A stretch of 64,000 bases of DNA from Agrococcus sp. Marseille-P2731 (GTDB lineage Bacteria > Actinomycetota > Actinomycetes > Actinomycetales > Microbacteriaceae): NCBI RefSeq assembly GCF_900117395.1, contig NZ_FPEG01000003.1:930001-994000 (forward strand), in the 5' to 3' direction. Below, piece after piece: positions 1 through 57,607 of the stretch. Position 1 is the first letter of the stretch; every line of letters begins with the position of its first letter. A program made the translations under genes and the position numbers. The notes beneath the pieces are model-generated. The model was not told the DNA's origin. It was given only the letters and a program-made list of their open reading frames with translations, and made no database searches.

Positions 1-1268
1 ATCTTCGGCAGCGACATGCTCGTCATCTCGCGGCACAGGTACATGGCGATCTGGCGAGCGAGCGCGATCGTCTGCGACCGCGATGAGCCGTGCAGGTCGT
101 CGACCGTCAGCTTGAAGTAGGCAGCGGTGTGGCTGATGATGTCGCTCGGCGACACGGGTGCCTCCTCGTCGAACGAGAAGAGGTCCTTCAGCACCGTCTG
201 CGCGAGCTCCATCGTGACCGGCAGCCGGTTGAGGCTCGCGAACGCGGTGACGCGGATGAGCGTGCCCTCGAGCTCGCGGATGTTCGACTGCACCTTGTCG
301 GCGATGATCGAGAGCACCTCCGGGGGGATCTGGATGCGCTCGGCCTCCGCCTTCTTGCGCAGGATCGCGATGCGCGTCTCGACATCCGGCACCGTCACAT
401 CTGTGATGAGACCCCACTCGAAGCGGCTCACCATGCGCTCCTCGAAGCCCTGCAGGTGCTTGGGCGCGACATCCGAGGTGATCACGACCTGCTTGTTGTG
501 ATCGTGCAGTGTGTTGAAGGTGTGGAAGAACGCCTCCTGCGTGGACTCCTTGCCGCGCAGGAACTGGATGTCGTCGATCAGCAGCACGTCGACCTCGCGG
601 TACCGCTGCTGGAACGACTGGTTCAGGTTGTTCGCGATGGCGTTGATGAAGTCGTTCGTGAACTCTTCGCTCGAGACGTAGCGCACCCGGATCCCCGGGT
701 ACATCCCCTCGGCGTAGTGACCGATCGCGTGCAGGAGGTGCGTCTTGCCGAGGCCCGAGTCGCCATAGATGAACAGCGGGTTGTAGGCCTTGGCCGGCGT
801 CTCGGCGACCGCCAGAGCGGCAGCGTGTGCGAAGCGGTTCGAGCCGCCGATGACGAAGTTGTCGAAGGTGTACTTCGGGTTGAGCCGCGAGTCGACACGC
901 CGCTGGTTCTTCTCGCCCGGCTCGCGCTCGTAGCTCGTGACGGGTGCGACGACGGGGTCCGAGGCGGGGTCGTCGATGAGGTCCGGCAGCGGCTCCTCGC
1001 GCTCGAGCTGCGGGTTCACGACGATCTTGAACTGCGAGATCTCCACAGCGTTCTCCACAAGGGCTTCCGTGACCGGGAGCCGGAGGCGCTGCTCGAGCAT
1101 GTCGCGCGTCAGGTCGTTCGGGACGTCGAGGTAGAGCACCGATCCCATGACGCCCTGCGGCTCGACGAGGTCGAGGAATCCGCGCAACGACGGGGGAATC
1201 CGGTTGTCGACCTCGAGGGTCGCCAGGACGGAGGACCAGAGGTGTCCGGTGCTGTCGTCCGGGGCCAT
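1..1268 (-). CDS. dnaA: Chromosomal replication initiator DnaA, C-terminus cut by window edge
   Basis: DnaA is the AAA+ ATPase that binds DnaA boxes and opens the origin. About 422 codons are visible, from ATG at 1268 leftward to the edge. Domain I occupies roughly residues 1-85, followed by an acidic, proline-rich linker. The ATPase domain has Walker A GDSGLGKT at 169-176 and Walker B VLLIDDIQ at 228-235. The frame leaves the window inside domain IV, so the DNA-binding signature is not seen. The start follows a GAGAGGA ribosome site. rpmH is divergent, which is the usual actinobacterial order, so dnaN and the main origin should lie to the left. Confidence 0.97.
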
Positions 1269-1308
1269 CGGATGCGGTTCCTCTCCGAGAACAGTCGTGT
1301 GACGGGTG

Positions 1309-1343
1309 CTATCCACACCATTATCCACAGGATGTGTGGATGA
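1309..1343. promoter_or_regulatory. Three DnaA-box-like 9-mers upstream of dnaA
   Basis: A perfect consensus box TTATCCACA lies at 1321-1329. CTATCCACA at 1309-1317 and TCATCCACA (minus strand, 1335-1343) each differ from it by one base. They sit 40-75 bp before the dnaA start codon and overlap a GATAAT that could be its -10 element, which would fit autoregulation. Autoregulation is inferred from the position. Confidence 0.7.
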
Positions 1344-1474
1344 GAGGTCCGCTCGCACCGACGCTCGAATGGCACCTTGCGTGACGCGGATCAGTCGAGT
1401 CTGCACGCATAGACCATCCCGTGCAAGTCTCGCTGGCACCCGAGCGGCGTGGCGCGGATCAGACCTCCGCTCCG

Positions 1475-1503
1475 TTGACCGGGGCTCGTGCTTCGCGTAT
1501 GCT
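1475..1503 (+). promoter_or_regulatory. Probable housekeeping promoter for rpmH-rnpA
   Basis: TTGACC at 1475-1480 and TATGCT at 1498-1503 are separated by exactly 17 bp, a close match to the main sigma factor consensus. It lies about 100 bp before rpmH. The rest of the 333-bp gap between dnaA and rpmH holds no gene. Confidence 0.65.
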
Positions 1504-1601
1504 CGTCAGGTTGCCGCGCCCGCAGTGCGGCGCATCGTCGAGCCCGTCGGCTCGCCACCATGACTTGCGGCGCGAACTGCGCCGGACCACGGGAGAACAC
1601 C

Positions 1602-1739
1602 ATGAGCAAGCGCACGTTCCAGCCGAACAACCGCCGCCGCGCCAAGAAGCACGGCTTCCGCCTCCGCATGCGCACGCGCGCCGGCCGCGGCATCCTGGCG
1701 GCACGCCGTCGCAAGGGCCGCACCGAGCTCTCGGCGTAA
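1602..1739 (+). CDS. rpmH: 50S ribosomal protein L34
   Basis: A 45-residue, very basic protein beginning [20 protein letters not shown], the invariant L34 pattern, and ending with an arginine/lysine tail and KGRTELSA. Length is typical for the family. It is part of the large ribosomal subunit. ATG is chosen because the match to the family begins there. rnpA follows after 11 bp, so the two are probably co-transcribed from the promoter at 1475-1503. Confidence 0.98.
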
Positions 1740-1750
1740 GACCGAGCGAG

Positions 1751-2074
1751 GTGCTCGCGAAGGCGAACCGGATCGTGCGCGGCGATGACTTCCGTCGCAT
1801 CGTGCGCACCGGTCGCCGCGCGGGCTGCGAGCTCGCGGTGGTGCACCGCGCGAAACCCGAAGCGGCAGTCGCCCGCTTCGGGTTCATCGTGTCCAAGAAG
1901 GTCGGCAACGCCGTGATCCGCAACCGAGTGAAGCGACGCCTGAGCGAGGTCGTGCGCGCCGAGCTCGGCGACATCGAGACGGCCGACATCGTCATCCGGG
2001 CCCTTCCTGCGGCAGCCATAGCCGACCTGGCTACACTGAGGGCCGGCATCGCGCCGCTGCTGGTGCGCCGGTGA
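1751..2074 (+). CDS. rnpA: Ribonuclease P protein component
   Basis: Protein subunit that helps RNase P RNA bind and cleave precursor tRNAs. 107 residues from a GTG start (VLAKANRIVRGDDFRRIVRT). The family signature is the basic helix KKVGNAVIRNRVKRRLSE around residues 50-67. The frame is open further upstream, through rpmH in another frame, but homology starts at this GTG. The stop overlaps the GTG of yidD (GTGA), suggesting coupled translation. Confidence 0.96.
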   Translation: MLAKANRIVRGDDFRRIVRTGRRAGCELAVVHRAKPEAAVARFGFIVSKKVGNAVIRNRVKRRLSEVVRAELGDIETADIVIRALPAAAIADLATLRAGIAPLLVRR

Positions 2075-2361
2075 GGAGCCTCATGCTCCTGCCGCGCAAC
2101 GTCTGCGTCGCGATCCTCGTCGCCTACAGGGCAGTGATCTCACCGCTCTACGGCGACGTGTGCCGCTACTACCCCAGCTGCTCGCGATACGCCATGCAGG
2201 CGATCCAGCAGCACGGGGTGGTGCGCGGCATCTGGTTCGGCGCCAGGCGCCTGCTCCGCTGCCACCCGTGGGCGGCAGGCGGGGTCGACGACATCCCAGA
2301 GCCGCGAGAGCGGTTCGCAACGACTCGGGCGGGATTCGTGCTCGCCCACAAGGAGCAGTGA
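2071..2361 (+). CDS. yidD: Membrane protein insertion efficiency factor YidD
   Basis: Small membrane-associated helper of the YidC insertase. 96 residues with the diagnostic YPSCSRYA (the family carries YxPxCSxYA) and the LLRCHPWAAGGVDDIP block. An N-terminal hydrophobic or amphipathic helix is present. GTG at 2071 overlaps the rnpA stop by 4 bp; an ATG at 2083 is an alternative start. yidC follows 4 bp after the stop. Confidence 0.95.
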   Translation: MRSLMLLPRNVCVAILVAYRAVISPLYGDVCRYYPSCSRYAMQAIQQHGVVRGIWFGARRLLRCHPWAAGGVDDIPEPRERFATTRAGFVLAHKEQ

Positions 2362-2365
2362 CAGC

Positions 2366-3328
2366 TTGGACATCTTCGCCCTGCTGATGTGGCCCATCAA
2401 GTGGGTCATCGAGGCGATCCTGGTCGGATTCCACTGGGTGGTCACCAGCCTCGGCGGTGACCCCGGCTCCGGCCTCACCTGGGTGCTCTCGATCGTGGGC
2501 CTCGTGCTCGTGATCCGCAGCGCGATGATCCCGCTGACCGTGCGCCAGATCGTCTCCTCGCGCAAGTCGCTCGAGATCCAGCCCGAGATCCAGCGCATCC
2601 AGAAGAAGTACAAGGGCAAGAAGGATCAGTTCTCCCGCGAGGCGATGCAGCGCGAGACCATGGAGGCCTACAAGAAGGCGGGCACCAACCCCTTCGCCTC
2701 GTGCCTCCCGCTGCTCGTGCAGATGCCGATCTTCCTCGGCCTGGTGCAGGTCCTGACCGATGCCAACGCTGTGAAGCCCGGCGTGGGCCTGCTGACGATC
2801 GATCTCGCACGGCTGTTCAGCGAGTCCACGCTGTTCGGCATCGTCCCGCTGCACATGACGATGCAGGCGGGCTTCGCCACCGGCAGCATCCCCGTGATCA
2901 TCACGGCGATCCTGCTGACGCTCATCATGTGCGCGACGCAGTTCTACACGCAGCTGCAGATCATGACGAAGAACCAGACGCCGGCGATGAAGGAGTCGCC
3001 GATGTACAAGCAGCAGCGCATCCTGCTGTACATCATCCCGGTGTTCCTGCTCGTGTCCGCGTGGCTCTTCCCGCTCGGCACGATGTTCTACTGGCTCGTC
3101 TCCAACATCTACACGCTGGTGCAGCAGCTCATCATCATCAACAAGCTGCCGACGCCCGGCTCCGAGGCCGCGCTCGCGCGCGAGGCGCGGTTGGCTCGCA
3201 AGCGGCAGCGCATGGGCCTCCCGGCCGTCGACGAGGCGAAGCCCGGCGAGACGCAGGCAGAGATCGACATCCGCACCCAGCGGCAGCAGCCGCGCGGCAA
3301 GCGGCCGAAGTCGCAGCGAGAGGGCTGA
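2366..3328 (+). CDS. yidC: Membrane protein insertase YidC/Oxa1
   Basis: Inserts and folds inner-membrane proteins, alone or with SecYEG. 320 residues from a TTG start that follows yidD by 4 bp. Hydrophobic segments lie near residues 5-25, 33-55, 105-130, 170-195 and 215-250. A conserved arginine in the first core helix (VIRSAMIPLTVRQ) fits the hydrophilic groove of the family. The C-terminus is arginine-rich (RQQPRGKRPKSQRE), as in ribosome-contacting Gram-positive members. There is no large periplasmic P1 domain, as expected for Oxa1-type proteins. Confidence 0.96.
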   Translation: MDIFALLMWPIKWVIEAILVGFHWVVTSLGGDPGSGLTWVLSIVGLVLVIRSAMIPLTVRQIVSSRKSLEIQPEIQRIQKKYKGKKDQFSREAMQRETMEAYKKAGTNPFASCLPLLVQMPIFLGLVQVLTDANAVKPGVGLLTIDLARLFSESTLFGIVPLHMTMQAGFATGSIPVIITAILLTLIMCATQFYTQLQIMTKNQTPAMKESPMYKQQRILLYIIPVFLLVSAWLFPLGTMFYWLVSNIYTLVQQLIIINKLPTPGSEAALAREARLARKRQRMGLPAVDEAKPGETQAEIDIRTQRQQPRGKRPKSQREG

Positions 3329-3330
3329 GC

Positions 3331-3816
3331 ATGACGGAGCAGGACACGTCCGTGCGGGACGAGCACGCCGAGGTCGACGAGGGCGAGATCGCCGCCGACT
3401 ACATCGAGGGCCTGCTCGACATCGCCGACTTCGACGGTGACATCGAGATCGACCAGTCGGATGCGCGCACCACGATCGTCGTCGGCGAGGCCGGCGACGA
3501 CCTCGGCGGGCTCTCGAAGCCCGAGGTGGTCTCGGCGCTGCAGGAGCTGACGCGACTGGTGGTGCAGCAGCAGACCGGTGAGTTCTCTCGCCTGGTGCTC
3601 GACGTGGCCGGTTCGCGCGACGCCAGGGCCGAGGAGCTGCAGGCGATGGTCGACGAAGCGGCGACCGCGCTGGAGGACGGGGCGGAGCGTATCGCGCTCG
3701 AGCCCATGTCTTCCTACGAGCGGAAGCTGGTCCACGACCTCATCCGCGATCGCGGACTGTCGAGCGAGTCCGAGGGTGAGGCGGCCGACCGCCACATCGT
3801 CGTGCTCCCTGCCTGA
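3331..3816 (+). CDS. jag: Jag/KhpB-type RNA-binding protein (R3H domain)
   Basis: 161 residues. An acidic N-terminus is followed by a degenerate KH-like region (LGGLSKPEVVSALQELTRLV, about 63-82) and a C-terminal R3H domain with SSYERKLVHDLI near 130-141. The family binds RNA and affects cell elongation and envelope growth in Gram-positives. It starts 2 bp after yidC, its conserved partner (SpoIIIJ/YidC-associated). ATG is the first start after the yidC stop. Confidence 0.93.
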   Translation: MTEQDTSVRDEHAEVDEGEIAADYIEGLLDIADFDGDIEIDQSDARTTIVVGEAGDDLGGLSKPEVVSALQELTRLVVQQQTGEFSRLVLDVAGSRDARAEELQAMVDEAATALEDGAERIALEPMSSYERKLVHDLIRDRGLSSESEGEAADRHIVVLPA

Positions 3817-3830
3817 ATCCTGTCACCACG

Positions 3831-4574
3831 GTGTCGCACGACGAGCGCCCCGACCGGCAGATGCCGCGTGCCGCCGCTGATGCGGATCGAGATGGTGTTG
3901 CTGTGCCGACAGCTGCAGCACCCACTCCCCCGCCGACTGCACCCTTGCTCGAGGAGGAGCCCGCTGCAGCGGTCGCGCTGTTCGGGGACCGGATCGCGCT
4001 GGCACGCTCGTACACCGCGTCGCTCGCGGAGCACGGCGAGACGCTCGGCCTGATCGGACCGCGCGAGCTGCCACAGCTCTGGAGTCGACACATCCTCAAC
4101 TCTGCGCTCGTCGCACCGCTGCTGCACGGGCGTGTGGGCGATGTCGGGTCGGGTGCCGGCTTGCCTGGCCTGGTGCTGGCGATCGCTCGGCCAGACGTCG
4201 AGCTGACGCTGATCGAGCCGATGGAGCGTCGCACCGATTGGCTGCAGAGCGAGGTCGACCGGATGGGTCTGACCAATGTCACCGTCTTGCGAGCTCGGGC
4301 CGAGGAGCTGCACGGATCGGGGCTGCTGAAGCCCCTGGACCAGATCACTGCGCGAGCGGTGTCCGCTCTTCGCACCTTGATCCCCCTCACCGCTCCCCTG
4401 GTCCGCAGTGGCGGGCAGCTGGTGCTGCTCAAGGGCGGTCGTGCCGAGGAAGAGATCGCCGCTGCGCAGAAGGTGATCCGCAAGCATCGGTTGCATGACG
4501 TGGAGGTCCTGGACCTCGGTGCTGGGCACGGCCTCGACACGACGCGCGTGGTGCGGGCGGTCGTCGACCCCTGA
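3831..4574 (+). CDS. rsmG: 16S rRNA (guanine-527-N7)-methyltransferase RsmG
   Basis: Methylates the N7 of a guanine in the 530 loop of 16S rRNA using SAM. 247 residues. A low-complexity Ala/Pro N-terminus of about 45 residues precedes the fold. The SAM motif VGDVGSGAGLPGLVLA lies near 102-117, with the second-strand acidic residue in LIEPMERR. WSRHILNSA is the family motif just before it. GTG at 3831 is favoured because the next in-frame starts lie inside the variable tail. It is the last gene before the parS block. Confidence 0.95.
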   Translation: MSHDERPDRQMPRAAADADRDGVAVPTAAAPTPPPTAPLLEEEPAAAVALFGDRIALARSYTASLAEHGETLGLIGPRELPQLWSRHILNSALVAPLLHGRVGDVGSGAGLPGLVLAIARPDVELTLIEPMERRTDWLQSEVDRMGLTNVTVLRARAEELHGSGLLKPLDQITARAVSALRTLIPLTAPLVRSGGQLVLLKGGRAEEEIAAAQKVIRKHRLHDVEVLDLGAGHGLDTTRVVRAVVDP

Positions 4575-4659
4575 GCGTCGGCTCTCCCCGTAGGAGTGCT
4601 GCGGGCAGCCGGTGCACTTCGGTGGGCGTCAGGACGATGCCGGCTCGCGGACTCCGGGC

Positions 4660-4673
4660 GTTTCACGTGAAAC
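4660..4673. promoter_or_regulatory. parS site 1
   Basis: Exact 14-bp palindrome GTTTCACGTGAAAC, the chromosomal ParB loading site. It lies 86 bp after rsmG. Confidence 0.93.
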
Positions 4674-4952
4674 ACGCGTGTCGGAGCCCGTCGCGGTGAG
4701 CGGATGGTGCCGCGGCTCTCGCCGCACGGTGCACGTGCGCGGTGCCAGCGGCGCCCGCGCTCCGACGCTGGATTCTCACTGCGAGCGGGTTGCTTTGCGG
4801 GTGCGGCGCGCCTCGGGTGCCCTAATGGGGGTTTCGCTGAGAGCCGAGCGGCGTCACCTGCGAGTATGACAGCACCGCTGTTCGCGAGATCGGCGGAGTC
4901 AGGCAGAGATGCTGCCCACGCGATGATTGTGCGTAGGCGTGGCTCGACCGGC

Positions 4953-4966
4953 GTTTCACGTGAAAC
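4953..4966. promoter_or_regulatory. parS site 2
   Basis: Exact GTTTCACGTGAAAC, 293 bp from site 1. Confidence 0.93.
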
Positions 4967-5091
4967 GGAGGCTGAATCTCACGTGCTGGTTCATCCAGAC
5001 GACGGCATGGTCGGCCCGGCCGGTCGTGCACCTCTCGGCGAGGACACGCGCGGCGAGTCGTCATTCCGTCGGTGCGCGCCCAGCGCCGCGT

Positions 5092-5105
5092 GTTTCACGT
5101 GAAAC
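5092..5105. promoter_or_regulatory. parS site 3
   Basis: Exact GTTTCACGTGAAAC, 139 bp from site 2, within the extended palindrome TGTTTCACGTGAAACA. Confidence 0.93.
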
Positions 5106-5220
5106 ACCGGCTTCGGTAACGCGCGGAGCACCGGTGGCGGCGGGTGGTCCTGGGGTGGCTCAGCGTCAGGAGATGCGCTCGATCCGTGCCGAGGCTCGTA
5201 GATACTCGATCTGCCGCGGT

Positions 5221-5234
5221 GTTTCACGTGAAAC
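5221..5234. promoter_or_regulatory. parS site 4
   Basis: Exact GTTTCACGTGAAAC, 129 bp from site 3. Confidence 0.93.
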
Positions 5235-5327
5235 GCCTGCGAGACGCAGGAGGACGGAACGATGCAGCCCGAGCTGCGCGCGCGAGCGCACGCTGCTGGG
5301 GGCGCGCGTGGCTGAGGCGACGGCACT

Positions 5328-5341
5328 GTTTCACGTGAAAC
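5328..5341. promoter_or_regulatory. parS site 5
   Basis: Exact GTTTCACGTGAAAC, 107 bp from site 4, again extended to TGTTTCACGTGAAACA. Confidence 0.93.
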
Positions 5342-5710
5342 ACCGGTCGTCGAGGCTGGCGAGGGCGCCGATGCCATCGCGCATTCCGAGGGGGCCGTAG
5401 TAGCGCGGCAGCATAATGGGGCGCATCAGGGCAAGGTCAGAAGGAGCGCGCTGATCGCGCTGCACTCCGCATGCACCTCGGAGCTGAGGCTGCAGTGCGG
5501 AGGTGCGGCAGGCGCGGCCGTTTGCGACGAGCGCTCGACTCATGTGAGAACGATCCGGCGCGGGCCGTGGGCCCCGCTACCGCTGAGCGAGCCCGATGAG
5601 GGCGCTGCGCGTTCGAGTGAACCTCGAGATCGAGCAGTGTTGCTGGCGTACTGGGCCGGTGCGGGTCCTCCACGCCACGTGGTCGTTCGTAACAGCGGTC
5701 GGGGGCCGCC

Positions 5711-5729
5711 TGTGGAGAACTGTGGACAA
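5711..5729 (-). promoter_or_regulatory. Tandem DnaA-box-like pair
   Basis: On the minus strand, TTCTCCACA (5711-5719) and TTGTCCACA (5721-5729) are 10 bp apart start to start. TTGTCCACA is the preferred box form in GC-rich actinobacteria. Function is inferred from sequence alone. Confidence 0.55.
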
Positions 5730-5780
5730 CTGCGTCGCGCACGGCACGTGCGTAGGCGATGGCAGCGCTCGGGCTAGGTG

Positions 5781-5808
5781 CAACTTCCGCGGAAACTCGC
5801 GGAAGTTG
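5781..5808. repeat. Perfect 11-bp inverted repeat upstream of parA
   Basis: CAACTTCCGCG (5781-5791) is repeated inverted at 5798-5808 with a 6-base spacer. The left arm overlaps a second palindrome, TTCCGCGGAA (5785-5794). There is no T-run, so a protein-binding site or structural element is more likely than a terminator. Confidence 0.6.
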
Positions 5809-5853
5809 GCGTGTACCCCATAAGGCTCACCTCCGCGTTGAGGTCCAGTGGAG

Positions 5854-5885
5854 TTGTCCACAGGCGAGGTCTGCCGTGTGGACAA
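5854..5885. promoter_or_regulatory. Inverted pair of DnaA-box-like 9-mers
   Basis: TTGTCCACA on the plus strand at 5854-5862 faces a second copy on the minus strand at 5877-5885, giving convergent boxes 23 bp apart. They lie 155-190 bp before parA. Confidence 0.6.
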
Positions 5886-6007
5886 GTCACGCGCCACCCG
5901 ACGGGCGTGGCCGTGGCCCTGCGTGAGTGGCTGCGGACTTTGCGAATCGGCGCGCGCGGTCCAGACTGGATACCGCATCCCACTCGGCTCGTCGCGCTCG
6001 GCGCGAT

Positions 6008-6021
6008 GTTCCACGTGAAAC
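6008..6021. promoter_or_regulatory. parS site 6, directly before parA
   Basis: GTTCCACGTGAAAC fits the relaxed parS consensus GTTNCACGTGAAAC and differs from the five upstream copies at one base. It ends 19 bp before the parA start, so ParB bound here could affect parAB expression. Confidence 0.85.
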
Positions 6022-6040
6022 ATCATTCAGGAAGGCACGC

Positions 6041-6925
6041 GTGACCACGGGAAAGTTCGATACGACTCCGATCGCCCGGGAGCTCGCCGCCATGGCGCGC
6101 CGCCGGCAGGCGCTCTCGGCGCAGCAGCTGCCACTGCCCTCACGGACGCGCATCTTCACCGTGGTGAACCAGAAGGGCGGCGTCGGCAAGACCACGACCG
6201 CCGTCAACCTCGCTGCTGCCCTCGCGCAGGGCGGTGCGCGCGTGCTCGTGCTCGATCTGGATCCCCAGGGCAACGCATCCACCGCGCTCGGCATCGATCA
6301 CCACGCCGACGTCATGAGCACGTACGACGTGCTCATCGACGGCGAGTCACTCACCGATGCGATCGCCATCAGCCCGCAGAGCAAGCAGCTGCAGGTCGTG
6401 CCGTCGACCATCCACCTCGCTGGTGCCGATCTTGAGCTCGCAGGCATGGAGCGACGCGAGCACAGGTTGCGAGAGGCGCTGGACGCGCACCTCTCGACGA
6501 CGGGGGAGCCCCCCCACTACGTGTTCATCGACTGTCCGCCATCCTTGGGGCTGCTGACGATCAACGCGTTCACCGCCGCGACCGAGGTCCTGATCCCGAT
6601 CCAGTGCGAGTACTACGCGCTCGAGGGCGTCACGCAGCTGCTCGACACCATCGGTCGGATCCAAGCGCACCTGAACCCCAAGCTCGACGTGAGCACCGTG
6701 CTCCTCACGATGTTCGACGGCCGCACGCTGCTGTCACGGCAGGTCGTCGACGAGGTGCGGGCGCACTTCCCCGAGCAGACCCTCGAAGCGGTCATCCCCC
6801 GCTCGGTGCGCGTCTCGGAAGCCCCGGGCTACGGCCAGACGGTGATCGCCTACGACCCCAACTCACCCGGAGCGCTCTCGTATCGCGAGGCTGCCACGGA
6901 GATCGCACGCAGAGGAACCGCATGA
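6041..6925 (+). CDS. parA: Chromosome-partitioning ATPase ParA
   Basis: Walker-type ATPase that binds DNA non-specifically and moves ParB-parS complexes during chromosome segregation. 294 residues from GTG at 6041, behind the site CAGGAAGG. The deviant Walker A NQKGGVGKTTT covers about 43-53 with the signature lysine, followed by DLDPQGNAST and DCPPSLGLLT. The first 35 residues are a basic/polar extension (MARRRQALSAQQ) that could contact DNA. The frame stays open 114 bp upstream, but that crosses parS site 6. The stop overlaps the parB start (ATGA). Confidence 0.97.
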   Translation: MTTGKFDTTPIARELAAMARRRQALSAQQLPLPSRTRIFTVVNQKGGVGKTTTAVNLAAALAQGGARVLVLDLDPQGNASTALGIDHHADVMSTYDVLIDGESLTDAIAISPQSKQLQVVPSTIHLAGADLELAGMERREHRLREALDAHLSTTGEPPHYVFIDCPPSLGLLTINAFTAATEVLIPIQCEYYALEGVTQLLDTIGRIQAHLNPKLDVSTVLLTMFDGRTLLSRQVVDEVRAHFPEQTLEAVIPRSVRVSEAPGYGQTVIAYDPNSPGALSYREAATEIARRGTA

Positions 6926-7995
6926 GCAAGAAGGCAGGGCTCGGGCGCGGCATCGGCGCGCTCATCCCCACTGGTCCGTCGGTCATCGAGGGCGCACCCG
7001 ACACGTCCCCGGATCCAGCCTCGGAGCGCACGACCTCTGACGGCTCGCGGACGCCGCCCAGCGACACCGCCCCGGCACGCCGCCGTCGGCCATCCAAGGC
7101 GGGATCTCGACCCGTCGACGTGTTCTTCTCAGGCGAGGAAGAGGATCAGCCGCTGCTGGAGGTGCCGGGTGCGACGCTCATCGCGGTCGCCCCCACGGCC
7201 ATCCGCCCGAACGCCAGCCAGCCGCGCACGGTGTTCGACGAGGACGATCTCAGTGAGCTCGAGCACTCGATCCGCGAGTTCGGTGTGCTGCAGCCCATCG
7301 TGGTGCGGCCCGCGGCCCTCGGCGAGGATGGCACGCAGTACGAGCTCATCATGGGGGAGCGGCGCTGGCGAGCGAGCCAGCGCGCCGGTCTCGAGACGAT
7401 CCCGGCGATCGTCAGGGACACCGCCGATGACGCCATGCTGCGCGATGCACTCCTCGAGAACCTCCACCGCGCGCAGCTCAACCCGCTCGAAGAGGCATCG
7501 GCGTACCAGCAGCTGATGGAGGACTTCGCGATCACGCAGGAGGAGCTGTCACGGCGCATCGGGCGCAGTCGTCCGCAGATCTCCAACACCATCCGGCTCC
7601 TGAAGCTCCCGGAGGGCATCCAGACGCGCGTCGCCTCAGGGGTGCTCTCGGCTGGCCATGCGCGCGCGATCCTGTCGCTCTCCACGGTGGAGGCTCAGGA
7701 GCAGCTCGCCGCGAAGATCGTCAATGAGGATCTCTCAGTTCGGGCTGCGGAGGCCGCCGCAGGGCTCGTGCAGACGCGCAGCCCGCGCAAGGCGCCGACG
7801 AAGGGCGCGCTCCAGCACGGGCTGGACGAGATCGCAGTGCGCCTCGAGGACCGCCTCGACACGCGCGTCAAGGTGACGCTCGGCCGCTCGAAGGGCCAGC
7901 TGACGATCGACTTCGCGACCGTCGCCGACCTGAACCGCATCCTGGCGCAGCTGGGGGAGCAGGGATTCGGATCCGAGGAGCCGGCCGCCGAGTGA
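6922..7995 (+). CDS. parB: Chromosome-partitioning protein ParB
   Basis: Loads at parS and spreads as a CTP-dependent clamp. 357 residues. The N-terminal ParA-contact stretch (KKAGLGRGIGALIP) is followed by a disordered Ser/Pro region. The CTP-binding domain carries GERRWRA near residue 145 and ENLHRAQLNPLEEA. The helix-turn-helix is TQEELSRRIGRSRPQISN, and a C-terminal dimer domain closes the protein. ATG overlaps the parA stop by 4 bp. Its target sites lie 0.9-2.3 kb upstream. Confidence 0.97.
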   Translation: MSKKAGLGRGIGALIPTGPSVIEGAPDTSPDPASERTTSDGSRTPPSDTAPARRRRPSKAGSRPVDVFFSGEEEDQPLLEVPGATLIAVAPTAIRPNASQPRTVFDEDDLSELEHSIREFGVLQPIVVRPAALGEDGTQYELIMGERRWRASQRAGLETIPAIVRDTADDAMLRDALLENLHRAQLNPLEEASAYQQLMEDFAITQEELSRRIGRSRPQISNTIRLLKLPEGIQTRVASGVLSAGHARAILSLSTVEAQEQLAAKIVNEDLSVRAAEAAAGLVQTRSPRKAPTKGALQHGLDEIAVRLEDRLDTRVKVTLGRSKGQLTIDFATVADLNRILAQLGEQGFGSEEPAAE

Positions 7996-8035
7996 GCGAC
8001 GGAGCGCGCCGCCGCACGATGCGGCTGCCGCACGA

Positions 8036-8071
8036 GTGAGGGCCCCCGGAACGCATCCCGGGGGCCCTCAC
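8036..8071. terminator. Bidirectional hairpin between parB and trxA
   Basis: Stem GTGAGGGCCCCCGG (8036-8049) pairs with 8058-8071 over an 8-base loop. No T-run follows on either side. It sits between two convergent operons. Confidence 0.75.
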
Positions 8072-8085
8072 GCATGCGTGCGCGC

Positions 8086-8397
8086 TCAGAGGAACTTCGC
8101 GAGCTCCTGCTCGATCGCGGGCTTCGGGCGCGCGCCGATCAGCTCGTGCACGACCTCGCCGCCCTGGAAGACCTTCATCGCCGGGATCGACGTGATGTTG
8201 TAGCGCATGGCCAGGTCGGGCTCCTGGTCGACGTTCACCTTGACGACGTCGAGCTTCTCGGTCTCGTCGTTGATCTGCTCGAGGATCGGGCTGACCGCGC
8301 GGCACGGGCCGCACCAGGCAGCCCAGAAGTCCACGACGACGGGCTTCTCAGACTTCAGCACGTCCTGCTCGAACGATGCGGTGGTGACTTCCTTCAC
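8086..8397 (-). CDS. trxA: Thioredoxin
   Basis: 103-residue thiol-disulfide reductant with the active site WCGPC at residues 28-32 (Cys29, Cys32) and the cis-proline loop TSIPAM. The GTG start overlaps the trxB stop (GTGA), so the reductase and its substrate are translationally coupled. Nothing is missing compared with classical Trx. Last gene of the minus-strand operon that starts with the DUF6049 protein. Confidence 0.97.
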   Translation of the reverse strand: MKEVTTASFEQDVLKSEKPVVVDFWAAWCGPCRAVSPILEQINDETEKLDVVKVNVDQEPDLAMRYNITSIPAMKVFQGGEVVHELIGARPKPAIEQELAKFL

Positions 8398-9368
8398 AGT
8401 GCTGCCTCCGTAGGTGCGGTTGCGAGAGCCGGCACGGCGTGCGCGGCCAGGTAGTGCTGGGCGTCGAGCGCCGCCACGGTGCCGGAGCCCGCTGCGGTGA
8501 TCGCCTGCCGGTAGGTGGGGTCGATGACGTCGCCCGCGGCGAAGACACCGGCGACCGAGGTGCGTGACGTGCGGCCGTCGACCGCGATCGTGCCCTCGGT
8601 GGTGAGGTCGAGCTTGCCGTGCACCAGGTGGGTGCGCGGGTCGGAGCCGATCGCCACGAAGACGCCGTCGATCGGCATCTCCCAGGTCTGGCCCGACGTG
8701 GTGTCGCGCAGCGTGACCGCGGAGACCTGCTGCGTGCCGTTGACGTCGGTGCCGGTGATCTGCTCGACCACCGCGCCCGTCAGGAACTCGATCTTCTCGT
8801 CGGCGCGCGCGCGGTCGAGCATGACCTCGCTGGCGCGGAAGCGGTCGGAGCGGTGCACGATCGTCACCTTGTCGGCGAACTTCGTCAGGAACGTCGCCTC
8901 CTCCATCGCGGAGTCGCCGCCACCGACGACGATGAGCTGCTTCTGCTTGAAGAAGAAGCCGTCGCAGGTCGCGCACCACGAGACGCCGTGGCCCGACAGG
9001 GGCTCCTCGCCGGCGACGCCGAGCTTGCGGTAGGCAGAGCCGGTCGCGAAGATCAGCGTGCGCGTCTCGAGCACCTCGTCGCCCACGTGCACCCGCTTGA
9101 CCTCGCCGTCGAGCTCGAGCTCGGTCGCATCCTGCATGCGCACGTCGGCACCGAACCGCTCGGCCTGCTGCTGCATCGCGAACATGAGGTCGGGGCCCTG
9201 CACGCCGTCGGGGAAGCCCGGGAAGTTCTCGACCTCGGTCGTGGTCATGAGGTCGCCGCCCATCTCGACGCTCGAGGCGAGCACGATCGGCTGCAGATTG
9301 GCGCGCGCTGCGTAGATCGCTGCCGTGTAGCCGGCCGGCCCGGAACCGATGATGATGACGTCGTGCAC
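8394..9368 (-). CDS. trxB: Thioredoxin-disulfide reductase
   Basis: NADPH- and FAD-dependent enzyme that reduces thioredoxin. 324 residues. FAD motif IIIGSGPAGYTAA at 5-17, redox pair CATC at 132-135, NADPH motif VVGGGDSAMEEA next, and the C-terminal FAD segment GVFAAGDV. GTG at 9368 sits behind AGGAGGTCTC. Located immediately upstream of trxA with a 4-bp overlap. Confidence 0.97.
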   Translation of the reverse strand: MHDVIIIGSGPAGYTAAIYAARANLQPIVLASSVEMGGDLMTTTEVENFPGFPDGVQGPDLMFAMQQQAERFGADVRMQDATELELDGEVKRVHVGDEVLETRTLIFATGSAYRKLGVAGEEPLSGHGVSWCATCDGFFFKQKQLIVVGGGDSAMEEATFLTKFADKVTIVHRSDRFRASEVMLDRARADEKIEFLTGAVVEQITGTDVNGTQQVSAVTLRDTTSGQTWEMPIDGVFVAIGSDPRTHLVHGKLDLTTEGTIAVDGRTSRTSVAGVFAAGDVIDPTYRQAITAAGSGTVAALDAQHYLAAHAVPALATAPTEAAL

Positions 9369-9412
9369 GAGACCTCCTGGGTCATGGCGGGTTGCTCCCG
9401 AGACAACCGATT

Positions 9413-9787
9413 CTAGGTCGTCGGCATTCCCCGGAGCTCGGTCAGCAGGTCGCCCGTCGCGGCGTCCACGACGATCAGCCCGTCGGCGGGCCACTCCGGC
9501 GTGCGGCGCACGACCGGCTGCACGACGCGGTCGCGGATGCGTCGATCCCACGAGTCGACGAGGCGCGCGGTGTCGGCGTCCACGATGAGCACCGCCGGGT
9601 GCGCGTGCGCGAGCGAAGAGGAGGCATCCGACGACCACCAGCCCTCGACCGCGAGCGGCCGAGACGGTGCGGCGAGCTCGCGCTGCTGCTCGCGCTCGCG
9701 CGTGAGGCTGCCGGCGACGATCGCGCCGACGCCGGCGAGCGCGCCGACGAGCAGCGGTGCCGCGATGCGGATGAGCGGACTCGCCAT
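9413..9787 (-). CDS. Small membrane-anchored protein of unknown function
   Basis: 124 residues from ATG at 9787, which follows AGGAGGCGTGC. One N-terminal transmembrane helix (RIAAPLLVGALAGVGAIVAG, residues 6-25) is followed by a soluble domain with VLIVDADTARLVDSW and GLIVVDAATGDLLTELRG. No family is recognised. It lies between murJ and trxB in the same direction, 44 bp before trxB, so it is probably in the same transcript. The two similar V-D-A strands hint at a small repeated beta unit. Confidence 0.7.
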   Translation of the reverse strand: MASPLIRIAAPLLVGALAGVGAIVAGSLTREREQQRELAAPSRPLAVEGWWSSDASSSLAHAHPAVLIVDADTARLVDSWDRRIRDRVVQPVVRRTPEWPADGLIVVDAATGDLLTELRGMPTT

Positions 9788-9898
9788 GCACGCCTCCTGA
9801 CGTCCCTGCGTGGTCGTGAGAGGCATCCGCCCCCGACCGATCGCCATGCTAGAGGGCGAGCGTGTGCACCGCCTCTGCGTCGGCGGAGCACCACCCGT

Positions 9899-11560
9899 TC
9901 AGGCCGGGTCGGTCCCGGTGGGCGGGAGGCCGCCGCCACGGCCGCCGCGGAGCTTGCCGACCACGATGGCGACGGTGGCGCGGAAGTCCGGGTTGCGCGT
10001 CAGGTAGAGCAGGCCGAAGTAGATCACGGCGATGACGACGCCTGCCGTGAGCGAAGTGGTGATCGCCCCGGCGAAGTTCAGCGTGCCGAAACCACCGGGC
10101 CGATAGCCACCCATCGCCCACACGGTCGCGGCGCCTGCAGCAGCCGCAGGCAGGGCGAAGGCGAGGTACTGCAGGTGGCGCAGCGCGATGAGCTTGAAGC
10201 CGAAGGGGCCGATCTTCCGGCGCACGAGGATGAGCCAGATGGAGCAGGAGATCAGGTTGGCGCCCGAGACCGCGAGCGCGGTGCCGACGATGATCCACTC
10301 GCCGGGCAGGGTCGAGGCCGCCCACAGGAGGGCGAAGGTGACGAACATGCCGAAGCAGGCGTAGAAGAAGGGGGTGCGCGTATCGCCGAGCGCGAAGAAG
10401 ACGCGCTGGATGACGTACTCGGCGCTGAACGCCACGAGGCAGATCAGGAAGGCCCAGATGACCTGCGCCATCGCGAGCATCAGCTCGAACTCGGGGTCGA
10501 GCAGGCGGGCGAAGGGCACCGCGATGACGGCCACCGCGAAGGCCGAGATCGTGGTGAGCATGCCGACACCGCGGAGCGCCGAGGAGAGGTCGGTGCGGAT
10601 GCCCGCCATGTTCGACTCGCTCGCGTGATGGGACATGCGGGTGAAGTAGGCGATCGCGATCGACACGGCGATGATCGAGTGGGGGAGCGAGAACACGAAC
10701 CAGGAGTTCTGCATCGTGGCGATGTTCGCCACCTCACCCATCGAGGCGACGCGCGACTGCACGACGCCCTTGATCTGGCCGATGATGACGATGCCGAAGA
10801 GCCACAGCGCTGCCTTGCCGGTGGCGCGCAGGCCCACGCCGCGCCAGCCGAAGTCGAGCCGGAAGCGCATGCCCGTCTTGCGGAAGAAGAGCACCAGCAC
10901 GAGCGCCTGCACCGCGACGCCGGCGGTGGTGACGATGCCGAGGATGGCGATGCGGTCGGCATCCCAGACCTGGACGGCGCGGTTCACCCGCTCGCCGCCG
11001 AACAGCAGGATGAAGGCGCCCAGGCCCGCGATCGAGACGACGTTGTTGACGACCGGCGCCCACGTGTAGGGGCCGAACTGGCCGCGCGCGTTGTAGATCT
11101 CGCCGAGCAGCGTGTAGATCGCGTAGAACAGGATCTGCGGCATGCACCAGTAGGCGAGCGCGGTGGCGAGCGCCATCTGCTCGTTCGTGAAGCCGAGCCC
11201 GCCATCGCCCGCACTGACCGCGTAGAGCTGCACGAGCCAGGGGGCGGCGACCGTCGCGATGGCCGCGAGCAGCAGGAACACCGTGCCGCCGAGCGTCAGG
11301 ATCTTCGAGACGTACGACTCGCCACCATCGGCAGCCTTCGACGCCCTGACGATCTGTGGCACGAGCACAGCGCTCATGACGCCGCCGGCGACGAGCGCAT
11401 AGACGTTGTTGGGCAGCTGGTTGGCGAGGCCGAAGGTCTCAGCGGCAGCCGAGCCCGACTGGCCGATCGCGGCCGCGAGCACGACCATCTTCACGAAGCC
11501 GAGCACGCGCGACACCATCGTGCCCGACGCGATGATCGCGCTCGCCCTGCCAGCGTTCAC
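9899..11560 (-). CDS. murJ: Lipid II flippase MurJ (MviN family)
   Basis: Moves lipid-linked peptidoglycan precursor across the membrane. 553 residues, 14 or so hydrophobic helices. The N-terminus (ASAIIASGTMVSRVLGFVK) and the charged FRLDFGWRG loop fit the MviN/MATE-like fold. The mycobacterial pseudokinase extension is absent: the protein ends shortly after the last helix with a Gly/Arg tail. GTG at 11560 overlaps the stop of the upstream DUF6049 gene by 4 bp, the conserved neighbour in Actinobacteria. Confidence 0.94.
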   Translation of the reverse strand: MNAGRASAIIASGTMVSRVLGFVKMVVLAAAIGQSGSAAAETFGLANQLPNNVYALVAGGVMSAVLVPQIVRASKAADGGESYVSKILTLGGTVFLLLAAIATVAAPWLVQLYAVSAGDGGLGFTNEQMALATALAYWCMPQILFYAIYTLLGEIYNARGQFGPYTWAPVVNNVVSIAGLGAFILLFGGERVNRAVQVWDADRIAILGIVTTAGVAVQALVLVLFFRKTGMRFRLDFGWRGVGLRATGKAALWLFGIVIIGQIKGVVQSRVASMGEVANIATMQNSWFVFSLPHSIIAVSIAIAYFTRMSHHASESNMAGIRTDLSSALRGVGMLTTISAFAVAVIAVPFARLLDPEFELMLAMAQVIWAFLICLVAFSAEYVIQRVFFALGDTRTPFFYACFGMFVTFALLWAASTLPGEWIIVGTALAVSGANLISCSIWLILVRRKIGPFGFKLIALRHLQYLAFALPAAAAGAATVWAMGGYRPGGFGTLNFAGAITTSLTAGVVIAVIYFGLLYLTRNPDFRATVAIVVGKLRGGRGGGLPPTGTDPA

Positions 11561-13599
11561 GCGGTCTCCTCCTGGGTCGTGCCGGGGGTGCTGCCGCTCT
11601 GGTCTCGGCTCGCGAGGTCGATGTCGCCGCGAGTCTCGCCGCGGCGGCGCTTCTGGATCGAGCGCAGGATGCCGAACCCGAGCAGCAGCACGATCGCCGC
11701 GCCGAGCGCCCAGGCGACCGCGACCTCGATCGTGGGCTGCGCAGAGACGCTCATGCGCTCGGTCTGCCCGAGCGGCACGCCGTCGGGGGTGTAGAGCTGG
11801 GTCAGGACGAACAGGCCGCCGGTGCCGACGACGTCGATCGGCACCTGCACGCGCTGCTGGCTGCTCGGGGCGATCGTCACCTCGACGCGCGGCTGGTCGA
11901 CGCTCACGAGCGCGTTCGTCGGGCGGAGCGTCAGCACGACGTTCGCCGGCACGTCGAGCGTGTTCGTGATCGTGACGGGCAGGCCGACGCTCTCGCCGAC
12001 CGCGCGGATCGGGCTGCCGGGCACGATCTGCACGGCGTTGCGCACCTCGTTCAGCGTGCCGGCGAGGCTCGCGATCGCTGTGCGGTCGGCGTCGGTCACG
12101 GGGGTGCCGGCATCGGGGAGGGCGACGAGCAGCGCGAGGCGCAGCTCGGCCAGCAGCGTGCTGGGCTCGTCGACGATCGAGGCGATGCTCGCGACCGCCG
12201 CCTCCTCCTCGAGCGCCTCGGAGACGAGCGCCGCGCCGTCGCCGAGCGCCGGCTCGTCGACCGGCGCGAGCGCGGCCTCGCGCGCGGGCCCTTCGAGCGC
12301 TGCATCGAGGTCGGTGGTCTCGACGAACTGCGCCCCCGCGAGATCGTCGAGCAGGGCGGATGCGTCGCCGCGCGTCACCGGCGGCAGCACGGCCGCGAGG
12401 ATGCGCGGATCGCTCGGCCGCTCGCGCGTGACGGTGGCCAGCAGTGCGAGGACCTGCGCGCGCACGGCGGACGCCTCGAGCGGATCGGTGGAGGCGGACT
12501 CGACGACCAGCTGCTGCAGCTGCGCGTCGGCGGCGAGCAGGCGGACCCCGTCGATCTCGACGCCGGCGCTGGGCGTCGCGCCGCCGAGCTCCTCGTCGAG
12601 CATCCCGGTGGAGAGCACGAGCGTGCCGGCCTCGGTGAGCGAGGCGAGCTCCGCCTGCTGCACGCTCGTGCTCGTGGCGTCGATCACGGGCTCGCGGCTG
12701 CCGGTGGAGCCGAACGACGCAGGCAGCGGGCGACGGCCGTCTGCGCGCGGGATGCCGAGGGGCTCGAGCGGGTAGGTGTCGGCGCGCAGCTGCGCGAGCG
12801 GGTCGGCGTTGCCGTAGAGCAGCGGATAGGTCTCGCGGGTGTCTGCGCGCTCGAGCCACTCGACCGCGGCCTCCGGCGCATCCGCCCCCAGCGCCTCGAC
12901 GCTGGTGCCGAACGCCGGATCGATGCCGATCGTCGCGCCCGCGTCGAGCGCCGCGTCGAGCGCGCCGTAGGCGCCGCCGCCGAAGTCGGTCTCCGCCTCG
13001 AGCGCTGCTGCGTCGAGCAGGCCGGTGGCGTCGACGCCCGAGTCGATCGGGGCGGCGAGCGCGAGGGTCGTCGGCTGTGCCTCGCCAGGGACGTCGCGCA
13101 CCACGACGCTGTTCGCGCCACCGTAGGTCTCGGTCGCCGCGGCGATGCCGTAGGCGCCCCACGCGCGACCATCGAGCCCCAGCTGCTCAGCGCTGATCGT
13201 TGTGCGCATGGCGTGGTCGTCGTCGGCGCCGAGCGCCGGCACGTTGACCGTCGCGACGACCGAGCTGGCCAGGAACCCCTCGCCGGCGAACCAGCGGCTC
13301 AGGCTGTAGCGGGTGCTGATCGGCGCGGAGGTCAGCAGCACGTCGACGGTCGAGGCGGCGGTGGGCTCCTGGCCCGCGTTGTCGAACTCCAGCTCGACCA
13401 CGAGGCCCTCGCCGTCGCCCACGAGCGGGTCGACGGGGGCGATGCGCACGGTGGGCACCTGCTGCGCCGTCTCGTCCGGCACGCCCGTCGCCGAGGCCGC
13501 TGCGGGGGCCAGCAGGGGTGCGGCGAGCGCCGCGGTCGCGAGCAGGGCGACGGCGCACGAGGTCGCGCGCCGGCGCGCGAGGCGACCTCCCGACAGCAT
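11557..13599 (-). CDS. Secreted, membrane-anchored DUF6049-type protein
   Basis: 680 residues. A signal peptide (TSCAVALLATAALAAPLLAP, about 12-31) leads a long extracellular part. A single transmembrane helix near the C-terminus (VAVAWALGAAIVLLLGFGIL) is followed by a basic cytoplasmic tail. A domain before the helix looks like an Ig-like fold. It belongs to the large actinobacterial protein always found next to murJ; its role in the cell wall is unknown. ATG at 13599 has no clear ribosome site and may be leaderless. pcnA diverges 66 bp away. Confidence 0.85.
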   Translation of the reverse strand: MLSGGRLARRRATSCAVALLATAALAAPLLAPAAASATGVPDETAQQVPTVRIAPVDPLVGDGEGLVVELEFDNAGQEPTAASTVDVLLTSAPISTRYSLSRWFAGEGFLASSVVATVNVPALGADDDHAMRTTISAEQLGLDGRAWGAYGIAAATETYGGANSVVVRDVPGEAQPTTLALAAPIDSGVDATGLLDAAALEAETDFGGGAYGALDAALDAGATIGIDPAFGTSVEALGADAPEAAVEWLERADTRETYPLLYGNADPLAQLRADTYPLEPLGIPRADGRRPLPASFGSTGSREPVIDATSTSVQQAELASLTEAGTLVLSTGMLDEELGGATPSAGVEIDGVRLLAADAQLQQLVVESASTDPLEASAVRAQVLALLATVTRERPSDPRILAAVLPPVTRGDASALLDDLAGAQFVETTDLDAALEGPAREAALAPVDEPALGDGAALVSEALEEEAAVASIASIVDEPSTLLAELRLALLVALPDAGTPVTDADRTAIASLAGTLNEVRNAVQIVPGSPIRAVGESVGLPVTITNTLDVPANVVLTLRPTNALVSVDQPRVEVTIAPSSQQRVQVPIDVVGTGGLFVLTQLYTPDGVPLGQTERMSVSAQPTIEVAVAWALGAAIVLLLGFGILRSIQKRRRGETRGDIDLASRDQSGSTPGTTQEETA

Positions 13600-17118: not shown

Positions 17119-17446
17119 CATGTGCGCGGCGGGGGTCGGATGTGTGTCAAATCGCAGTGGGGGACAGGAACCTTCAACGTGCACTTCAGGGATGCTTCTC
17201 CCCACCGGGTGTGGAAACGAAAATGCCCGGTCAGAGCCGCTTTCGGGGGGAATCCTCATCCGCATTCCACAGATCTGTGCACAGGCGTGCGGAGTGTCGA
17301 GGCGGCGATGCGGCGGCGTTGTCCCCAGGTCTCCACAGATCTCTCCACAGGGCGATTCGACGCCGGGTCTCGCGGCTTCTAGCCTGTGCGAGGCTCCCTC
17401 ATCTCGTGTGGGTGGAGTGCGGCATCGTCGAGTCGGAGGGGGCACC
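17119..17446. other. dnaB upstream region with CCACA motifs
   Basis: 328 bp without a credible gene. It holds the palindrome CACAGATCTGTG (17268-17279), a second CCACAGATCT at 17333-17342, and CTCTCCACA at 17341-17349, which resembles a DnaA box. The dnaB promoter must lie here but no clear -35/-10 pair is seen. Confidence 0.5.
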
Positions 17447-57544: not shown

Positions 57545-57585
57545 CGGCGCAATCTGTACCCCAAATCCGTTCGCAGACCGCGAAA

Positions 57586-57607
57586 ACACGCGGAATTCGC
57601 GGCGTGT
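57586..57607. repeat. Inverted repeat upstream of hup
   Basis: ACACGC and GCGTGT arms (57586-57591, 57602-57607) flank a GAATTC centre. No other element stands out in the 186-bp hup leader, which also carries a strong AGGAGG site before the start. Confidence 0.4.

Follow-up and report, generated by a model that had tools for sequence, protein, structure and literature searches.

A phased DnaA-box array ahead of parA in Agrococcus, a candidate control element linking replication initiation and chromosome segregation

To our knowledge, the coupling of replication initiation to segregation is an open question in most bacteria. In Bacillus subtilis, noc is a paralogue of parB, and we take soj-spo0J to follow trmE-noc. 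As far as the available parts of the cited papers describe it, DnaA is established as a transcription factor outside oriC (PMC4447404, PMC8203912); in B. subtilis it binds upstream of trmE and downstream of jag and seems to repress trmE-noc directly (PMC4447404), and coupling has been described there via protein contact between Soj and DnaA (PMC5319796). The same kind of partial sources report DnaA boxes in the centromere region of Caulobacter crescentus, close to its origin (PMC6399470, PMC6667618), and describe joint control of parAB2 by the initiator RctB and ParB2 on chromosome II of Vibrio cholerae (PMC6399470), where the initiator is not DnaA and the replicon is a second chromosome. Escherichia coli datA, DARS1 and DARS2 are non-coding groups of DnaA boxes with conserved spacing, with IHF sites in datA and DARS2 (PMC4585315, available text). 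Among actinobacteria, IDAP-seq and ChIP-seq in Mycobacterium tuberculosis and M. smegmatis named five DnaA regions, that is oriC, rpmH-dnaA, Rv0010c-Rv0011c, the region upstream of dnaB and Rv3843c-RVnc0040, and one of the sites outside oriC carries a palindrome of two box-like sequences (PMC7738170, available text). Within the titles and abstract beginnings searched, a body of literature that most subscription papers lie outside, we found no parAB promoter described with a DnaA array, the lone match for a DnaA box upstream of parA concerning secondary replicons of Deinococcus. The main text of PMC8203912 holds no word starting with "parA", "soj" or "partition", and the same literature, again with most subscription papers outside it, returned nothing linking Agrococcus with DnaA, nor a bipartite origin with a DnaA box and gidB.

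The stretch of DNA analysed here (the window, 64,000 nucleotides) is C1:930001-994000 of a 3.02-Mb assembly that is listed with 7.69% contamination. dnaA lies on the minus strand at its left end and is followed rightwards by rpmH, yidC, rsmG, parA and parB. The boxes lie 4.4 kb from the start of dnaA, within the 1,466-bp spacer between rsmG and parA, which contains no evident gene:

3831-4574, plus strand: rsmG (gidB), the left edge of the spacer that holds the array
4660, 4953, 5092, 5221 and 5328 (span 4660-5341), no strand assigned: five parS copies
5711-5719, minus strand: DnaA box TTCTCCACA, first of pair 1
5721-5729, minus strand: DnaA box TTGTCCACA, second of pair 1
5781-5808, no strand assigned: palindrome CAACTTCCGCG-GAAACT-CGCGGAAGTTG, centred on 5794.5, at 74.5 bp from one pair centre and 75.0 bp from the other
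5854-5862, plus strand: DnaA box TTGTCCACA, first of pair 2
5877-5885, minus strand: DnaA box TTGTCCACA, second of pair 2, inverted
5940-5967, plus strand: promoter-like TTGCGA-N16-CAGACT, the putative promoter of parA
6008-6021, no strand assigned: parS GTTCCACGTGAAAC with one mismatch, directly ahead of parA
6041-6925, plus strand: parA, with a probable GTG start that agrees with the same-genus alignment
6922-7995, plus strand: parB

All four boxes of the original prediction were recovered at the positions it gave. In the window, TTNTCCACA occurs six times against 0.22 expected, a number attained by 0 of 100 shuffles, and in the whole genome it occurs 26 times (control pattern, 10). Four of these 26 lie inside the 175 bp of 5711-5885, as do three of the six genomic copies of TTGTCCACA, a sequence listed as a high-affinity box of M. 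tuberculosis and Streptomyces coelicolor (PMC4285127, available part). Finding four boxes per 175 bp anywhere in the genome has a Poisson estimate of ~6e-7. The cluster is thus far beyond chance, and a genome-wide check found no equal box density elsewhere. The prediction had placed the boxes between parS and parA. They do lie ahead of parA, but the window holds six parS copies (at most one mismatch) including the one at 6008, so that the boxes are inside the parS field, between its fifth (5328) and sixth (6008) copies. It had also described dnaA promoter boxes at 1309-1343, where the dnaA-rpmH spacer has a single strict box, TTATCCACA at 1321-1329; a further strict box, TTCTCCACA at 1051-1059, is within the dnaA coding region. 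The palindrome and the promoter-like element were absent from it and were found here.

Compared with the systems above, the array resembles the trmE site of B. subtilis, a DnaA-bound region near the origin, outside oriC and adjoining jag, in being a predicted DnaA-binding region of such a kind. It differs in that the cluster in the window stands directly ahead of parA-parB and consists of two phased pairs around a palindrome. Unlike the boxes of Caulobacter, which belongs to another phylum, those of the window stand apart from the parS copies, six in number, and ahead of the promoter-like element of parA. With datA and the DARS sites the array shares box groups with conserved spacing outside oriC, and the palindrome at its midpoint is a candidate for the bending site of those elements; in contrast to them, it sits at a segregation operon. 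Altogether, the array looks like a DnaA regulatory site, and we claim membership neither of datA/DARS nor of oriC.

To describe conservation, we used 24 same-genus (Agrococcus-type) genomes including the window's own, of which 22 had a readable region upstream of parA (G020 and G021 were dropped). The family set consisted of the 80 best DnaA matches and is therefore not random; seven had no parA in the stretch, leaving 73, and 72 once L029 was removed, since the record of G012 (Candidatus Agrococcus pullicola) is identical to L029 and L120. For the order, 40 genomes from 16 other families (of 74) were chosen for spread and contig position, 39 of them with parA. Within 600 bp of parA, 22/22 same-genus genomes had at least one strict box and 19/22 at least two, compared to one or more in 2/72 family loci (two boxes in 1/72, Plantibacter) and 3/39 order loci (two in 1/39). 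When boxes with at most one mismatch were required in both -400 to -201 and -200 to -101 of parA, all 22 same-genus loci had them, compared to one of the 72 other family loci (L087, with two lone near-matches) and one of the 39 order loci (L185, a real array). At least four such boxes between -400 and -101 were found in 20/22, 0/72 and 1/39 loci, respectively. Since 1-4 strict boxes are usual in the dnaA-dnaN spacers of these family loci, the scarcity at parA is not a general scarcity of boxes. As at DnaA-controlled promoters, several boxes lie upstream of the transcription unit and are kept in place relative to gene and promoter, both places before parA being occupied in 22/22 genomes, which as members of one genus are not independent samples; the spacing deviates in G005, G012 and G022. 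Hexamers comparable to those of the promoter-like element were found 101-116 bp upstream of parA in 14 of the 22.

The geometry of the array is kept while the DNA between its elements is not. The fixed-register statistics cover 19 genomes, the same three (G005, G012, G022) being excluded. In 19 of the 22 genomes, pair 1 is made of two direct boxes at a 10-bp distance, the companion box allowing one mismatch. The boxes of pair 2 are usually inverted, with a plus box at the window's position in 15/19 genomes and a minus box in 16/19. Variants of pair 2 are two direct minus boxes 10 bp apart (G010, G011, G016, G018) and two plus boxes 10 bp apart (G007, G008, G014). In the window, the pair centres are ~150 bp apart. 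Counting boxes with at most one mismatch in the 19 genomes, the distance from the second box of pair 1 to the plus box of pair 2 was 141-144 bp in 14 of the 15 having one and 133 bp in the window's own genome, where this box is thus about one helical turn closer to pair 1 than in relatives. The distance to the minus box was 154-157 bp in 14/16, with 165 and 167 bp in the other two, so that shifts of the cluster distance are of ~10 bp, that is one helical turn. The standard deviations of these distances were 2.6 bp (plus box) and 3.7 bp (minus box), compared to 308 bp between rsmG and pair 1 and 11.5 bp between pair 1 and parA. With the register set on pair 1, pairwise identity was 0.88 in the pair 1 boxes and 0.31, that is saturated, outside the elements. 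Identity in this ungapped register was no more than 0.35-0.36 for the pair 2 columns and 0.44 for the palindrome region, since the layouts differ and the elements jitter in place by 1-3 bp. In the three outliers the cluster distance is 96-108 bp and no 10-bp pair 1 is found, and in G012 and G022 the pair 2 boxes are near-matches. Our reading of these data is that selection acts on the sites and on how they are phased, and not on the DNA between them.

The midpoint of the array is occupied by the palindrome. A loose pattern recognises it in 13 of the 19, where it lies 65-67 bp from pair 1 and its centre is 0.2-8 bp off the midpoint, and does not recognise it in the other six; ten have the exact CCGCG-N6-CGCGG, and G007, G008 and G014 a looser form. 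Within 1500 bp upstream of parA, its TT-extended version was found in 1/73 family loci (Plantibacter; one of the 73 is same-genus) and in 0/39 order loci, and we therefore rejected the idea that such palindromes generally accompany parA. The same type of palindrome occurs a second time in the window:

57578-57595, minus strand: palindrome-type copy TTCCGCGTGTTTTCGCGG, 153 bp ahead of the HU-type gene of the window

Palindromes of this type precede the HU-type gene by 151-154 bp in 10 of 18 hand-picked same-genus stretches, the other eight being without an HU gene. Among 11 palindrome stretches from genera other than g50, one had an HU gene, none had parA, and the neighbours in the rest were mixed or unclear. 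By eye, the palindrome type also precedes the start of a dps-like protein in L243 (genus g85).

An array of similar design was found in a second genus of the family. Ahead of parA, the Plantibacter locus L088 (genus g50) carries a pair at -566/-554, a palindrome, and a pair at -248/-236; among the 72 other family loci, it alone has two strict boxes within 600 bp of parA. All five g50 genomes agree with this layout within a few bp. An 800-bp stretch of L088 recurs unchanged in the G195 stretch, on which the naming of g50 as Plantibacter rests. The second box of each Plantibacter pair has one mismatch, the palindrome centre is 1.0-3.5 bp off the midpoint in 5/5 genomes, and the distance between the pairs is roughly double. 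In a DnaA tree, the Agrococcus-type clade is placed next to nearly all other family loci, and Plantibacter is nested deep within the latter (supports 0.873 and 0.986), which implies that the array is either ancestral with frequent loss or was gained twice. In another family of the same order (f4), four extra genomes were fetched after L185 had proved positive and are counted outside the 39. Two box clusters precede parA in four of the five f4 genomes (L185, L223, L224, L225), and such a two-cluster array was not found upstream of parA in the fifth, L226. The distance between the clusters is ~127-147 bp, according to which boxes are taken, their layout is different, and the intervening DNA is AT-rich by eye; judged by its sequence, the f4 array looks like an independent instance. 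Separately, a second DnaA-box array including the palindrome TTCTCCACATTCCTGTGGAGAA was seen beside crgA in two g50 stretches (L156, L157), and palindromes of this type occur in 5/5 g50 genomes searched. We considered this palindrome as a parA element and rejected it, as it is near crgA and not parA. The crgA-side array is reminiscent of the mycobacterial Rv0010c-Rv0011c site, Rv0011c presumably being crgA.

From these data we propose, with a probability of about 0.6, that 5711-5885 is a DnaA-binding, loop-forming control element of parAB and of the surrounding parS field that couples initiation to segregation. DnaA would occupy both box pairs, held in a fixed helical relation, and either a putative factor bound to the central palindrome or this palindrome alone would fold the DNA such that the two DnaA groups meet. 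The DnaA complex would then set the expression of parAB, the state of the partition complex, or both, by the amount of free DnaA, and by reading free DnaA it would tie segregation to initiation. As for the sign of control, we lean weakly, at slightly better than even odds, to activation or timed release, because the predicted sites are clear of the promoter-like element, at a good distance upstream. The boxes begin 229 bp and end 54 bp upstream of this element, and the latter distance from the -35-like hexamer makes simple promoter occlusion unlikely. In plasmid par operons, ParB-type proteins feed back on their own operon, and ParB on the parS at 6008 could add feedback here, in the manner described for chromosome II of V. 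cholerae (PMC6399470). A broader model is more doubtful: a three-part switch in the centromere (DnaA pair, palindrome-bound factor, DnaA pair) might read DnaA and license parAB and segregation, with the same palindrome before the HU gene tying in nucleoid packing, the whole having been retained, or assembled in parallel, in at least two genera of the family, and a further family of the order having a DnaA array analogous to it.

The original prediction had offered a second DnaA hub tied to ParA, a DnaA sink, or part of an extended origin; in the sequence comparison, conservation favours the hub. That the array is instead a reservoir or activity switch of DnaA near oriC, as datA or the DARS sites are, with its position by parA incidental, is unlikely in our view. 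It would fit the 4.4 kb to the dnaA start and the DNA without an evident gene, and the two box groups around a central site resemble datA and DARS2, with their IHF sites among boxes of conserved spacing (PMC4585315, available text); a high box density near the origin of E. coli has also been linked to titration (PMC12371093, available text). However, the place before parA is common to two genera, a comparable array exists in f4, and bare titration requires neither fixed spacing, nor a central palindrome, nor this place. An action of DnaA on the centromere and not on transcription, licensing ParB-parS movement, would by analogy be suggested by the boxes inside the parS field, since DnaA of Caulobacter binds the parS region and low DnaA lets the centromere move without replication (PMC6399470, PMC6667618, available parts). 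It is improbable, as it needs no position near the promoter-like element of parA and the Caulobacter array is different. Against the proposed control element itself counts the mycobacterial mapping, as none of its five named regions is at parA in the available text (PMC7738170).

Part of an extended or second origin might be expected from the oriC-like cluster of boxes in this origin region, where strict boxes are denser (4 per 175 bp) than in the dnaA-dnaN spacer (1 per 530 bp). Yet an adjacent easily melted element was not found at the parA array. As judged from energies only, and with the array stretch (-360 to -100) being shorter, which favours the spacer, the weakest 50-bp stretch of the dnaA-dnaN spacer was weaker than that of the array in 18/20 genomes. 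The same 18/20 was obtained against the whole rsmG-parA spacer, the exceptions being G001 (parA side weaker) and G018 (a tie). The dnaA-dnaN spacer lies beyond the window; across the genus it shows blocks of conservation and has its own motifs, one of them (ACCTTCAACGTGCACTTCA, below) shared with dnaB and not with the array. Since this origin is conserved and softer, a second origin is very improbable, and this part of the original prediction is disfavoured. Finally, a chance cluster or a by-product such as a terminator hairpin is scarcely credible. The palindrome could fold as an RNA hairpin and, by eye, related palindromes adjoin tRNA-like sequences in two stretches of other genera (L236, L242), but the 91-nt RNA fold at the palindrome is weak (z = -1.36), and the boxes and their spacing are kept in 19 genomes with saturated spacers. 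With this fold, and with no match at gathering score in an Rfam scan of window positions 1-12000, we rejected an RNA element. Returning to the loop-forming control element, a DnaA array with strict geometry before parAB would make the coupling directly testable via base changes and via 5-bp compared to 10-bp insertions, and it points to a putative factor at the palindrome. The arrangement suggests that commitment to chromosome replication is wired to the segregation machinery.

The motif mentioned above lies upstream of dnaB in the window:

17170-17188, plus strand: 19-bp motif ACCTTCAACGTGCACTTCA, an exact copy, common to oriC

It occurs with one mismatch in the dnaA-dnaN origin (G000:C1:929714-929732), and the two other matches in the genome have three mismatches. 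The best matches in the 22 parA arrays have 6-9 mismatches, the same level as in the dnaA-dnaN spacers of the family (6-9 in 79/80, and two in L029, which is same-genus), and we thus rejected ACCTTCAACGTGCACTTCA as a mark of the parA array. DnaA binding upstream of dnaB is reported in mycobacteria (PMC7738170, available text), and boxes occur upstream of dnaB in the Agrococcus-type genus as well. In the window, the DnaA boxes upstream of dnaB, at ~17319-17349, are near-matches only. At least one strict box was seen upstream of dnaB in all 11 stretches of relatives with dnaB (L163, L164, L166-L169, L173-L175, L177 and L178), several of which had been chosen because of a strict-box match.
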